Positions 54,809-62,610 of a stretch of DNA of 64,000 nt are shown here, in pieces. Each line of letters starts with the position of its first letter. The first letter of the stretch is position 1. The stretch is from Castellaniella denitrificans (lineage in GTDB: Bacteria > Pseudomonadota > Gammaproteobacteria > Burkholderiales > Burkholderiaceae_B). The stretch is from the NCBI RefSeq assembly GCF_027214045.1, contig NZ_JAPWHE010000005.1:62001-126000 (forward strand). The letters are read 5' to 3'. The translations under genes and the position numbers were made by a program. The notes beneath the pieces are model-generated. The model searched no databases and had not been told where the DNA came from. It worked only from the letters and a program-made list of their open reading frames with translations.

Positions 54809-55681
54809 TCAGCCGGCGCAGAGCTGCGCCGTAGAGCGCTCGAAGGATTGCGAGGCGTCCTCGGCGGAGAAGCCGTAGCCGCTCATGATCTTCTTCCAGT
54901 CGTCGGTCTTCTTGAACTTCGCCAGTTCCTTGTTCACGGCGTCACGCAGCGCGCCGGAATCCTTCGAGAAAGCGAAACCGCCCCAGCTGCGGACCGCCTG
55001 GCCGTCCACCACGGGGTCCTTGAAATCGCTGGCGACCTCGGTCTTGCCCTTGCTCTTGGCGGCCAGTTCGCCGACCGTCAGGCTGGTGGCGGCGTAGCCG
55101 TCCGCGCGTCCGGTGGTCACAGTGGAGATCGCGTCCGCATTGTTGGCGATGGTGACGATCCGGTCGGCGGGGACTTTCAGGGCCTGGAGGATTTCCAACT
55201 GGTCGGCGCCGGCCATGATGGCGATCTTGCCACCCGAATTGGCGAAGCTTTCGTAGCCGTGCAGGTTCTTCGGATTGCCCTTGGCGACCAGCAGTCCCTC
55301 GCCGTAGGAACTGTTCGGCTCGGAATAGAGCACCTGCTTGCAGCGCTGCGGCAGGATGGCCATTTCCGCGGCGACCATGTCGTAGCGATCGGCCTGGAGG
55401 CCCGGGATCAGGGAGCCGAACGCCGTCGTGGTCCACTCGATTTTGCCAATCCCCAGGGCTTTCGCGATGTGCTTGGCCACGTCCGGGCCGACACCCTTGG
55501 CCTCGCCCTTCAGATCCATGTAGCCGTAGGGGATTTCATTGGCGACGGCCACCCGCAGCGTGCCGCGGTCGCGGATGGCGTCGAGATCGGCGGCCTGCGC
55601 GGCGGCGCCCAGACCCAGGACACAGGCGGCTGCGGCCAGCAGCCGGGGAGTCAGTGCGGATTGCTTGAGTGCGGTTTTCAT
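54809..55681 (-). CDS. ehuB: Ectoine/hydroxyectoine-binding periplasmic protein (EhuB-like)
   Basis: A 290-residue solute-binding protein of family 3. A signal peptide (about 1-30, ending AAAQAAD) precedes IRDRGTLRVAVANEIPYGYMDLKGEAKGVGPDVAKHIAKALGI, the binding fold. The start GTLRVAVANEIPYGY and the ect context support EhuB. A strong promoter (TTGATT-N16-TATAAT) and AGGAGGG ribosome-binding site precede it, so it heads the ehuBCDA operon. No eut ectoine-degradation genes follow, so import is probably for osmoprotection. Confidence 0.87.
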   Translation of the reverse strand: MKTALKQSALTPRLLAAAACVLGLGAAAQAADLDAIRDRGTLRVAVANEIPYGYMDLKGEAKGVGPDVAKHIAKALGIGKIEWTTTAFGSLIPGLQADRYDMVAAEMAILPQRCKQVLYSEPNSSYGEGLLVAKGNPKNLHGYESFANSGGKIAIMAGADQLEILQALKVPADRIVTIANNADAISTVTTGRADGYAATSLTVGELAAKSKGKTEVASDFKDPVVDGQAVRSWGGFAFSKDSGALRDAVNKELAKFKKTDDWKKIMSGYGFSAEDASQSFERSTAQLCAG

Positions 55682-55800: not shown

Positions 55801-56010
55801 GGTACGGAAAATCCTTCGGGAGTCGATAGCGCAATTTTCTTGCCGCATTGGAGGGGTGGCGTGCTAGGATTCACCCGTCAATTCTCTGCGGAACGCGCGC
55901 ACCGCATGGGAAAGGCTTGAGAAGCGTGGAAAATCTTCCAGGTGCGGAAAGTCGTCCGGGTTCGGGTGGAGCAACTTTCTTGCCTCGAAGGGGCGGGCTG
56001 TGCTAGGATT
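55801..56010 (+). repeat. Duplicated 70-bp segment with promoter-like elements before aroG
   Basis: Segments 55801-55871 and 55942-56010 are diverged copies: both read G-T-[AG]-CGGAAA-..., then GCAA-YTTTCTTGCC, a G-rich run, and finally GTGCTAGGATT. CTTGCC and TAGGAT are possible -35 and -10 elements 18-19 bases apart. The second copy ends just before the leader peptide start. Confidence 0.7.
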
Positions 56011-56015
56011 TGTCG

Positions 56016-56099
56016 ATGCACTCGATTCCTTATTTTTTCTACTTTTTTACGTTTCCAAAACCGCTGGTGGAGGAAGGGAATCGCTGTACGAAAAGGTAG
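56016..56099 (+). CDS. Phe/Tyr-rich attenuator leader peptide
   Basis: A 27-codon frame: MHSIPYFFYFFTFPKPLVEE, then GNRCTKR. Seven of residues 6-13 are Phe or Tyr, closely like the E. coli pheA leader (PheL). AGGA lies 7 nt before the ATG; it also overlaps the TAGGAT -10-like hexamer. It ends 14 bases before the terminator in front of aroG. Ribosome stalling at the Phe/Tyr codons when these tRNAs are uncharged should favour the antiterminator. Too short for ordinary gene finders. Confidence 0.85.
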   Translation: MHSIPYFFYFFTFPKPLVEEGNRCTKR

Positions 56100-56113
56100 A
56101 CCACACATTCCCG

Positions 56114-56146
56114 AAAAAGCCGCCGGCGCTGCCAGGCGGCTTTTTT
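56114..56146 (+). terminator. Attenuator terminator before aroG
   Basis: AAAAAGCCGCC and GGCGGCTTTTT form the stem, with a 10-base loop and six T in all. It lies 40 bases before the aroG start, so it must be read through for expression. A competing antiterminator pairs GGTGG (56066-56070) with CCGCC (56120-56124) and GGGAAT (56076-56081) with ATTCCC (56107-56112). Confidence 0.88.
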
Positions 56147-56186
56147 GTTGCCGCCCCCGCATCCGGCCCATGAATGGAGCAAGACC

Positions 56187-57284
56187 GTGTCACACAATAC
56201 CGACGATACCCGCATCCGAGAAATCCGCGAGCTGGCGCCGCCCGCCCACGTGATGCGTGAATTCCCCTGCACGGCGGACATTTCCCGCACGGTCCACGAT
56301 GCGCGGCGGGCCATCCACGACGTGCTTTATGGCGACGACGATCGCCTGGTCGTCATCGTCGGCCCGTGCTCCATACACGACACCCAGGCGGCCCTGGAAT
56401 ACGCCCGCCGCCTGGCGCCGCAGCGCGAACGCCTGGACGCGGACCTGGTCATCGTCATGCGGGTGTACTTCGAGAAGCCCCGCACGACGGTGGGCTGGAA
56501 AGGCCTGATCAACGACCCGGGCCTGGACGGCAGCTTCGACATCAACCAGGGCCTGCGCACCGCGCGCGAGCTGTTGATCGACATCAACGCCTTGGGCCTG
56601 CCGGCCGGCACCGAATTCCTGGACATGATCACGCCGCAGTACATCGCCGATCTGGTGTCCTGGGGCGCCATCGGGGCGCGCACCACCGAAAGCCAGGTGC
56701 ATCGGGAACTGGCTTCGGGGCTGTCCTGCCCGGTGGGCTTCAAGAATGGCACCGACGGCAACACGCGCATCGCCATCGATGCGATCAAGGCCTCGTCGCA
56801 GCCGCATTACTTTCTGTCGGTCACCAAGGGCGGGCATTCCGCCATCGTATCCACGCGCGGCAACGAGGATTGCCACGTGATCCTTCGCGGCGGCAAGGCG
56901 CCCAACTATCAGGCCGAGCATGTCCAGGCGGCGGCCGAGGCCCTGGAAAAGGCCGGGATGCGTCCGCGCGTCATGGTGGATGCCAGCCATGCGAACAGCA
57001 GCAAGGATTACACCCGCCAGCCCCTGGTGATCGAGGACGTCTGCACCCAGATCGAGGCCGGCGATACGCGCCTGTTCGGCGTGATGGTCGAAAGCCATCT
57101 GGTGGGCGGACGCCAGGATCTGGTGCCGGGCAAGCCCCTGGTCTATGGCCAGAGCATCACGGACGGCTGTGTGGACTGGGACACGACCGCCGCCGTGCTC
57201 GATCGCCTGGCTGCGGCTGTGCGCGCGCGCCGTCAGGCGACGCGCGCGGATGAGACGGAACGCCGGTCGGTGCCTGCGGACTGA
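56187..57284 (+). CDS. aroG: 3-deoxy-7-phosphoheptulonate (DAHP) synthase, class I
   Basis: A 365-residue AroF/AroG/AroH-type enzyme that joins PEP and erythrose-4-phosphate, the entry to the shikimate pathway. Evidence: IVGPCSIHD, MRVYFEKPRTTVGWKGLINDPGLDGSF, GARTTESQVHRELASGLSCPVGFKNGTDG, and VMVDASHANSSKD. Start is GTG 56187 with GGAG 7 nt upstream. Regulation by transcription attenuation in response to Phe/Tyr is predicted from the leader; allosteric type (Phe- or Tyr-sensitive) is not clear by eye. Confidence 0.97.
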   Translation: MSHNTDDTRIREIRELAPPAHVMREFPCTADISRTVHDARRAIHDVLYGDDDRLVVIVGPCSIHDTQAALEYARRLAPQRERLDADLVIVMRVYFEKPRTTVGWKGLINDPGLDGSFDINQGLRTARELLIDINALGLPAGTEFLDMITPQYIADLVSWGAIGARTTESQVHRELASGLSCPVGFKNGTDGNTRIAIDAIKASSQPHYFLSVTKGGHSAIVSTRGNEDCHVILRGGKAPNYQAEHVQAAAEALEKAGMRPRVMVDASHANSSKDYTRQPLVIEDVCTQIEAGDTRLFGVMVESHLVGGRQDLVPGKPLVYGQSITDGCVDWDTTAAVLDRLAAAVRARRQATRADETERRSVPAD

Positions 57285-61380: not shown

Positions 61381-62610
61381 ATGCAGACACAACTCGCGGA
61401 ATGGGCGCGCGACACCGATTTCGGCCGGGAAGCCGATGAGATCTTGCGGCGCTGCGTGCATTGCGGCTTTTGCCTGGCGACCTGTCCGACCTATCAGATC
61501 ATGGGCGACGAGCTCGACAGTCCGCGCGGCCGCATCTATCAGATCAAGCAGATCCTCGAAGGCGCCGAACCGACCTACGTCACCCAGCAACACCTGGACC
61601 GCTGCCTGACCTGCCGCAATTGCGAAACCACCTGCCCCTCGGGCGTGCAATATGGCGCCCTGGTGGACATCGGCCGCCAGATCGTCAACGAGCGTGTGCG
61701 CCGCCCTCTGCGCGAGCGCCTGATCCGCGGGACCCTGCGCCGCCTGATGGGGTCGCGCTGGTTCGGACCGCTGTACCGGATCGGCATCTGGGTGCGGCCG
61801 GTTCTGCCCGCCGTGCTGCGGGCGAAGATCGCGCAGTCCCGGCCTGCGGGACTGCTGCCCGCCGATCCGGGCCGCCATGCGCGCCAGGTCCTGATGCTGG
61901 CCAATTGCGTCCAGCCCGCCATGATGCCGTCCATCGATGCCGCCACGCTGCGCGTGCTGGATGCGGTGGGAGTCGGTACTCGCATCGCCGCCGGATCGGG
62001 CTGCTGTGGCGCCATCAATTTCCACCTCGACGCCCAGGAAGCCGGCCGCGACCAGATGCGCGCCAACGTGGACGCCTGGTTGCCGCTGCTGGAATCCGGC
62101 GAGGTCGAGGCCGTGATCGTCAACGCCTCGGGCTGCGGCGGCATGATCAAGGACTACGCCCATCATCTGAAGCACGACCCGGCCTATGCCGAACGCGCCG
62201 CGCGTCTGATGCCGTATGTCAAGGACATCGCAGAATTTCTGGCGCCCATGGCGGCCGAGGTCCGCTCGAAGATGCGCCGCGCGCCGGGTCGCAGTGCTTT
62301 CCATCCGCCCTGCACGCTGCAGCACTGGCAGGGTCTGCGCGCCGTCACCGAGCGGCTGCTGTCCGATCTGGGTTTCGATCTCCAGTCCTTCGGAGAATCG
62401 CACCTGTGCTGCGGTTCGGCGGGCACGTATTCGATCACCCAGCCCGTGCTGTCGAAATCCTTGCGCGACCGCAAGCTTCAGGCGATCGAGGCGACGCTGC
62501 CCGAGACCATCGTGTCCTCGAACATCGGCTGTATCTGCCATCTCCAGAGCGGCACCGGCACACCGGTGCGCCACTGGATCGAAACCGTGGACGAGGCCCT
62601 GCATGACTGA
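61381..62610 (+). CDS. glcF: Glycolate oxidase iron-sulfur subunit GlcF
   Basis: A 409-residue protein with two 4Fe-4S motifs ([12 protein letters not shown] near residue 26 and [12 protein letters not shown] near residue 77) and two CCG-type domains ([13 protein letters not shown]... and the [17 protein letters not shown] segment). It passes electrons from GlcDE to quinone. ATG 61381. Its stop overlaps mnmA by eight bases. The usual regulator glcC is not here. Confidence 0.96.

Follow-up and report, generated by a model that had tools for sequence, protein, structure and literature searches.

A probable attenuator upstream of aroG

Upstream of aroG, the gene for 3-deoxy-D-arabino-heptulosonate 7-phosphate (DAHP) synthase, Castellaniella denitrificans carries a sequence element that very probably (roughly 0.9, judged from sequence and comparison) acts as a ribosome-mediated transcription attenuator. 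We studied it in a window of 64,000 nucleotides (positions 62,001 to 126,000 of contig NZ_JAPWHE010000005.1), and all coordinates below count from the first letter of that window. A short reading frame whose aromatic codons are under selection, mutually exclusive RNA pairings and the conservation of both emerge from sequence, folding and comparison. The first-pass annotation, made from the letters alone, had proposed the classic design of ribosome-mediated attenuation set on aroG, and this is still the best reading. Leader and terminator recur at 153 of 190 aroG loci. The parts of the locus are as follows.

55980..55985, + strand: -35-like hexamer TTGCCT, a weak match and putative
56001..56009, + strand: putative extended -10 box TGCTAGGAT, with a predicted transcription start (+1) at 56016, the A of the leader ATG
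56016..56099, + strand: leader peptide frame of 27 codons, predicted product MHSIPYFFYFFTFPKPLVEEGNRCTKR, stop codon at 56097-56099
56031..56054, + strand: control codons Tyr-Phe-Phe-Tyr-Phe-Phe-(Thr)-Phe, residues 6-13 of the translated frame
56053..56062, + strand: region 1, partner 56066-56075 (56053-56056 with 56072-56075 and 56060-56062 with 56066-56068), forming the conserved 1:2 hairpin
56062..56081, + strand: region 2, CGCTGGTGG (56062-56070) and GGGAAT (56076-56081), the 5' side of the antiterminator by folding and alignment
56107..56128, + strand: region 3, ATTCCC (56107-56112) and CCGCCGGCG (56120-56128), the 3' side of the antiterminator and also the 5' arm of the terminator
56114..56146, + strand: intrinsic terminator (3:4), stem and T run, with arms AAAAAGCCGCC and GGCGGCTTTTT of 11 nucleotides, 100% complementary, -20.9 kcal/mol
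56176..56179, + strand: ribosome-binding site of aroG, GGAG, from the sequence
56187..57284, + strand: aroG, class I DAHP synthase with a GTG start (NF006723 equivalog, 584.3 bits, cut-off 568)

The terminator arms start 14 bases past the leader stop, and 40 bases lie between 56146 and the GTG at 56187. Direct reading and computation both bear out the coordinates that the first-pass annotation gave for the 27-codon frame with its Y-F-F-Y-F-F-T-F run, the terminator, aroG and six pairing segments. The locus thus combines an aromatic leader frame, a terminator before the gene, an exclusive antiterminator and, in the family alignment, a 1:2 hairpin.

Leader and terminator occur together beyond chance

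We defined a strict test that asks for a frame upstream of aroG in which at least 4 of 8 residues are F, Y or W and whose stop falls between -70 and +12 relative to a terminator. Within the window's family, the loci are the best match of 110 of the 192 genomes with a match (sets of 30 and 80), mostly the better-ranked ones, genomes of 0.7-0.8 Mb being left out; a further 80 come from named records and are the best of at least 592 by similarity. The window's own locus (L002) is counted among the 190, and two records are apparently duplicated (L033/L149 and L032/L125). In the two family sets 28 of 30 and 71 of 80 loci passed the test, as did 54 of 80 named loci; since the latter are the best 80 and not an even sample, counts among them are no frequencies. 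In the window, both strands of all 64 kb gave one match, at the aroG leader, and there were none in 758,402 strand-bases of control DNA flanking the same loci, a control that is largely coding. An aromatic frame stands upstream of aroG in 106 of 110 family loci. The RNA of 55990-56190, whose folding the annotation had suggested as a check, is mildly more stable than its shuffles (z -1.99). The co-occurrence of leader and terminator is not due to chance.

In four family genomes from four genera (L179, L183, L187 and L188), aroG has no aromatic leader frame or terminator by the tests used; these are apparent losses.

Selection acts on the aromatic codons and, further on, probably on the RNA

Almost all of 77 distinct leader 5' parts have F or Y at six positions in a row. 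Across 85 family leaders, the ratio of nonsynonymous to synonymous differences (pN/pS) was 0.39 upstream of region 2 (404 pairs) and 1.23 from region 2 on (3007 pairs), the pairs not being independent of one another. The aromatic part of the leader is, by this measure of its sequences, under purifying selection, and the part from region 2 onward is not; the value of 1.23 is what one would expect if it is the RNA and not the peptide that is kept there. Codon choice in the leader is distinct as well. TTT makes up 0.80 of the Phe codons in leaders versus 0.28 in the aroG genes tallied for this family, and eight genes of the window hold 14 TTT and 80 TTC. Trp enters the ten densest leader residues by lineage, groups being named from record titles: in 6 of 99 family leaders, 11 of 13 from Burkholderiaceae, none of 12 from Oxalobacteraceae, and all of those from Xanthomonadales (7/7) and Rhizobiales (12/12).

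Two genomes of one genus (L189, L190) have a short leader of 18 codons, MKQVSHVFFFFYFTFSTQ and kin, with its stop inside region 2. Upstream of aroG in Candidatus Burkholderia humilis (L040), the RNA element is kept (78.6 bits) and the leader frame is unlike that of its relatives, perhaps through decay.

Mutually exclusive pairings are conserved

We examined the alternative hairpins in two alignments. The family alignment (A1) holds 72 of the 99 family leaders, with near-copies, five odd leaders and one over-long leader left out; the wider alignment (A2) holds 32 of the 54 named leaders and the window's own, with Oxalobacteraceae, Devosia and kin, two odd leaders and near-copies left out. The 2:3 antiterminator, which reaches -24.3 kcal/mol alone in the window, and the 3:4 terminator are placed as the first-pass annotation had them, and their pairing is conserved in the 72 relatives. 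The outer helix of 2:3 is paired in 91.3% and the inner in 68.2% of cells (82.2% overall, compared with at most 54.4% in slid registers), and its core is almost invariant. The terminator is 91.9% paired with 14 compensatory cells, a result equalled in 0 of 500 shuffles. Of nine bases of the terminator arm, 7.84 find partners in family leaders versus 4.78 with shuffled spacers (7.22 versus 4.72 in named leaders), and for 75 of 99 family and 36 of 54 named leaders no more than 2 of 50 spacer shuffles give an equally good fold. The leader and the 2:3 and 3:4 pairings, sought in relatives as the annotation had suggested, are conserved there, the opposite of the outcome that it had named as speaking against its reading.

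The pause hairpin called the 1:2 pairing in that annotation, 56023-56029 with 56077-56083, fared less well. It exists and is strong in the window, where this long form, which includes U-rich codons, reaches -17.1 kcal/mol versus -5.5 for a nearer 1:2 hairpin, and -41.4 kcal/mol together with 3:4. As the conserved 1:2 pairing we rejected it, because only 49% of cells are paired in the 72 relatives, no better than in slid controls. The consensus fold instead shows the nearer hairpin, UUCC..RCC-gcu-GGY..GGAA, which lies here at 56053-56062/56066-56075 and has the -5.5 kcal/mol when folded alone. In the family alignment 97.2% of its cells are paired and 24 are changed on both sides, with 0 of 500 shuffles as high. 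Its position immediately downstream of the control codons would place it beneath a stalled ribosome. When region 1 is masked in the window, the stretch 56062-56145 folds freely into the antiterminator (-29.7 kcal/mol). The window is among the 30 of 153 leaders that switch to the antiterminator when region 1 is masked and the full terminator is present.

Several results weigh against an attenuator of this design. Eleven of the 110 family loci fail the strict test, seven keeping the aromatic frame and four lacking a leader frame, and two of the 153 passes (L106 and L118) depend on doubtful frames. In the wider alignment the nearer 1:2 register is unsupported (67.9% paired versus 68.8% when slid by -3). 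Covariation in 2:3 does not rise above shuffles, 103 of 500 in the family alignment and 136 of 500 in the wider one, and for 3:4 a control slid by +1 has a higher covariation score (0.058) than the true register (0.048). A free transcript to 56128 folds 2:3 and not 1:2. Finally, for 123 of 153 leaders the fold of minimum energy retains the terminator when this is present in full and region 1 is masked, so that antitermination in these would have to be kinetic.

Alternative explanations

Could the frame encode a small hydrophobic peptide with a function of its own, the terminator only fixing the level of aroG? There is little room for this, for the F and Y positions differ by lineage and Trp enters whole lineages, RNA and not peptide is conserved from region 2 on, and the exclusive RNA pairings are conserved. 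A slimmer chance still attaches to the proposal that an enterobacterial Phe_leader RNA, as found at pheA, was brought to aroG. The annotation had called the leader PheL-like, which is apt for the design, and its IP..FF..FFTFP run presumably resembles PheL. In Rfam, the window stretch and locus L015 do match Phe_leader (RF01859) best, over its full length, with 28.2 and 34.7 bits; both scores are well under the gathering score of 55, the E-values are weak (0.018 and 0.023), only L015 matched RF01859 among seven loci compared, and the controlled gene is not the same. Membership of RF01859 was rejected on these scores, and the annotation's likeness does not extend to the family.

A ligand-binding riboswitch or a T-box before aroG would likewise be a 5' element with a terminator. 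We consider it the faintest of these prospects, given that the whole window holds no match at the gathering score of any Rfam family and that the conserved sequence is explained by the control codons and the frame.

The leader mRNA probably starts at its AUG

The motif TGnTAnnnT ends 6-9 nucleotides before the leader ATG in nearly every family leader (94 matches in 98 leaders versus 0.86 expected from shuffles, counted at 5-9 nucleotides). As TGCTAGGAT ends at 56009, transcription would start at 56016, the A of the ATG, and the leader mRNA is probably leaderless in the window's family. An AGGA before the leader ATG was considered as a Shine-Dalgarno sequence and set aside as part of the -10 box, because related genera read TAGAGT there, which fits such a box. 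Outside the family the strict motif at 5-9 nucleotides gave 4 matches in 52 named leaders (0.27 expected). By eye, Xanthomonadales and Rhizobiales have other -10-like boxes at the same distance, and Burkholderiaceae and Oxalobacteraceae have a TATAAA- or TATAGT-like box about 25-40 nucleotides upstream. As the strict test is weak outside the family, a leaderless start in Xanthomonadales and Rhizobiales is suggested by inspection. In one study, TGnTA precedes experimentally mapped leaderless mRNAs of Bradyrhizobium (PMC4842269), and another has the trpL attenuator transcript of Sinorhizobium meliloti starting at its ATG (PMC7298713).

Proposed mechanism

We infer that the element responds to Phe and Tyr through ribosome stalling, so that the availability of charged tRNA-Phe and tRNA-Tyr would govern how strongly aroG is expressed. 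Transcription would start at or within about 3 nucleotides of the leader AUG, and a ribosome would load on the 5' end upon its emergence. When Phe and Tyr are ample, the ribosome would pass the control codons and region 2 and reach the stop at 56097-56099, where its footprint would mask the last part of region 2 together with the 2-3 spacer; the terminator would then form and transcription end before aroG. When either amino acid is short, the ribosome would stall within 56031-56054 with its front over region 1, leaving region 2 free to pair with region 3, so that no terminator forms and aroG is read. In an untranslated leader, a 1:2 hairpin would sequester region 2 and the terminator would prevail.

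Spread of the element and phylogeny of aroG

The setting in a betaproteobacterium, to which the first-pass annotation drew attention, is real and not peculiar, for the element also occurs in many other Burkholderiales, in Xanthomonadales and in several Rhizobiales. Named records with leader and terminator come from Bordetella, Burkholderia, Paraburkholderia, Caballeronia, Cupriavidus, Trinickia, Massilia, Janthinobacterium, Rugamonas and Noviherbaspirillum, and from Xanthomonas, Stenotrophomonas, Dyella, Rhodanobacter, Bradyrhizobium, Mesorhizobium and Devosia. Among the 26 named loci that lack the element, 20 are assigned by record title to Rhodocyclales, Chitinibacteraceae, Ferrovum, Enterobacterales or Vibrionaceae, and in one (L078) only 55 bases upstream are present.

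A covariance model (R1) built from the family alignment was applied to 66 of the 80 named loci, two of which (L032, L033) are near-identical to training rows. At E-values up to 0.1 it found the full-length element in 40 of 42 loci (41 that pass the strict test, and L040), missing L036 and L059, and it had no match in 24 named loci without leader. Scores were 81 and 82 bits in Xanthomonas, 37 to 73 in Devosia and 34 to 50 in Bradyrhizobium. Short antisense matches to the terminator occurred too, as did one weak off-site match in L047. A blind scan with R1 of 274 genomes of the class, an even draw with 12 candidates scored per genome and hence of low sensitivity, gave six matches beyond the window locus; the four best lie directly before aroG and the two weakest do not.

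In a tree of 89 AroG rows, from which near-copies of the window's family were left out, leader presence needs 7 changes versus 22.7 when shuffled. Alcaligenaceae, Xanthomonadales and Rhizobiales are together set apart by a single branch (29 rows on their side) with a support of 99.3 in the Shimodaira-Hasegawa-like approximate likelihood ratio test. In a second tree of 75 rows, for which 14 long or unplaced rows were dropped beforehand, constraining all Burkholderiales rows together was mildly rejected by the approximately unbiased test (p 0.032); both are quick trees. The element follows an aroG clade across the three groups, which suggests that the gene was transferred with its switch, and we regard this, with moderate confidence, as the simplest reading of the sequences. 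To a fuller scenario we give slightly less than even odds: one aromatic-sensing switch would have moved with aroG as a cassette between Beta-, Gamma- and Alphaproteobacteria, its leader mRNA leaderless in the mobile clade, with 70S ribosomes initiating directly on the exposed 5' AUG and keeping pace with RNA polymerase, coupled to it from codon one onward, and the sensed aromatics would have been retuned in each lineage by codon swaps within the same frame, to Phe and Tyr in Alcaligenaceae and to Phe, Tyr and Trp in Xanthomonadales and Rhizobiales.

Relatives of AroG also occur on viral contigs (25 loci, L204-L228), with 42-79% identity over the matched part; a scan of 17 of these 25 loci with the covariance model found the element in none.

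Genomic context in C. denitrificans

The attenuated aroG is the single class I DAHP synthase match in its genome, where type II DAHP synthase gave no match and the one other PF00793 match is KDO8P synthase. No second copy of the whole element was found in this genome, the three other model matches being terminator only. The gene upstream of the leader is read in the opposite direction, which leaves the terminator no such gene to end.

54809-55681, - strand: divergent upstream neighbour, by look a putative ATP-binding cassette (ABC) transporter binding protein

A promoter-bearing unit is duplicated in the window (55801-55871 and 55941-56010; 44 nucleotides at 73%), with identical GTGCTAGGATT boxes 139 nucleotides apart. 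Among nine same-genus loci, the window's included, the window and its nearest relative (L003) alone have the second GTGCTAGGATT box, and in the window the upstream copy is not followed by an aromatic frame with a terminator.

Relation to known systems

The aroG leader shares with the Escherichia coli pheL-pheA attenuator (RF01859) a Phe-rich leader peptide and alternative 1:2, 2:3 and 3:4 hairpins; unlike it, the aroG leader controls aroG, adds Tyr codons, has region 2 within the frame, is probably leaderless and scores below the gathering score of that family. For aroF of Corynebacterium glutamicum, also a DAHP synthase gene, a putative attenuator leader with Phe-Tyr-Phe is reported from RNA sequencing (PMC4046766); it resembles the aroG leader in having this run before a DAHP synthase gene, but it is actinobacterial and likened here by its description, not by homology. 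The S. meliloti trpL leader (rnTrpL/peTrpL; PMC7298713) is a leaderless attenuator leader, as the aroG leader probably is too, but one for Trp before trpE(G), and its start is reported there, whereas that of the aroG leader is predicted. Attenuation has also been proposed before DAHP synthase genes of Proteobacteria, at aroF-tyrA-type operons of Vibrio (table in PMC1173090) and at aroF of Shewanella (PMC2659441). These differ from the aroG leader in being database or support vector machine predictions for a Tyr-sensitive enzyme, and the accessible parts of both sources describe no Phe/Tyr leader of the aroG type. For Bordetella, the table in PMC1173090 has an attenuator before a gyrA-serC-pheA-tyrA cluster, not aroG. 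The open literature searched, as far as its texts are accessible, does not describe an attenuator before aroG in these bacterial groups (including PMC2965389, PMC2659441, PMC8632094, PMC4833913, PMC1273637, PMC4448311, PMC1173090, PMC5343134, PMC5688073, PMC7298713, PMC4842269, PMC7563307, PMC4046766 and PMC1262725).

The kind of mechanism proposed here is already known; its family before aroG in these bacteria is, as far as searched, new and widespread, and the aroG leader element is a candidate for a new Rfam family. It offers a large natural series of related attenuators in which the sensed amino acids and the probable mode of start vary by lineage, so that both the evolution of attenuator specificity and the part played in attenuation by leaderless initiation can be tested directly. 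The element also supplies a missing control point, as many Burkholderiales and Xanthomonadales and some rhizobia may gate the entry of carbon into aromatic synthesis in this way.
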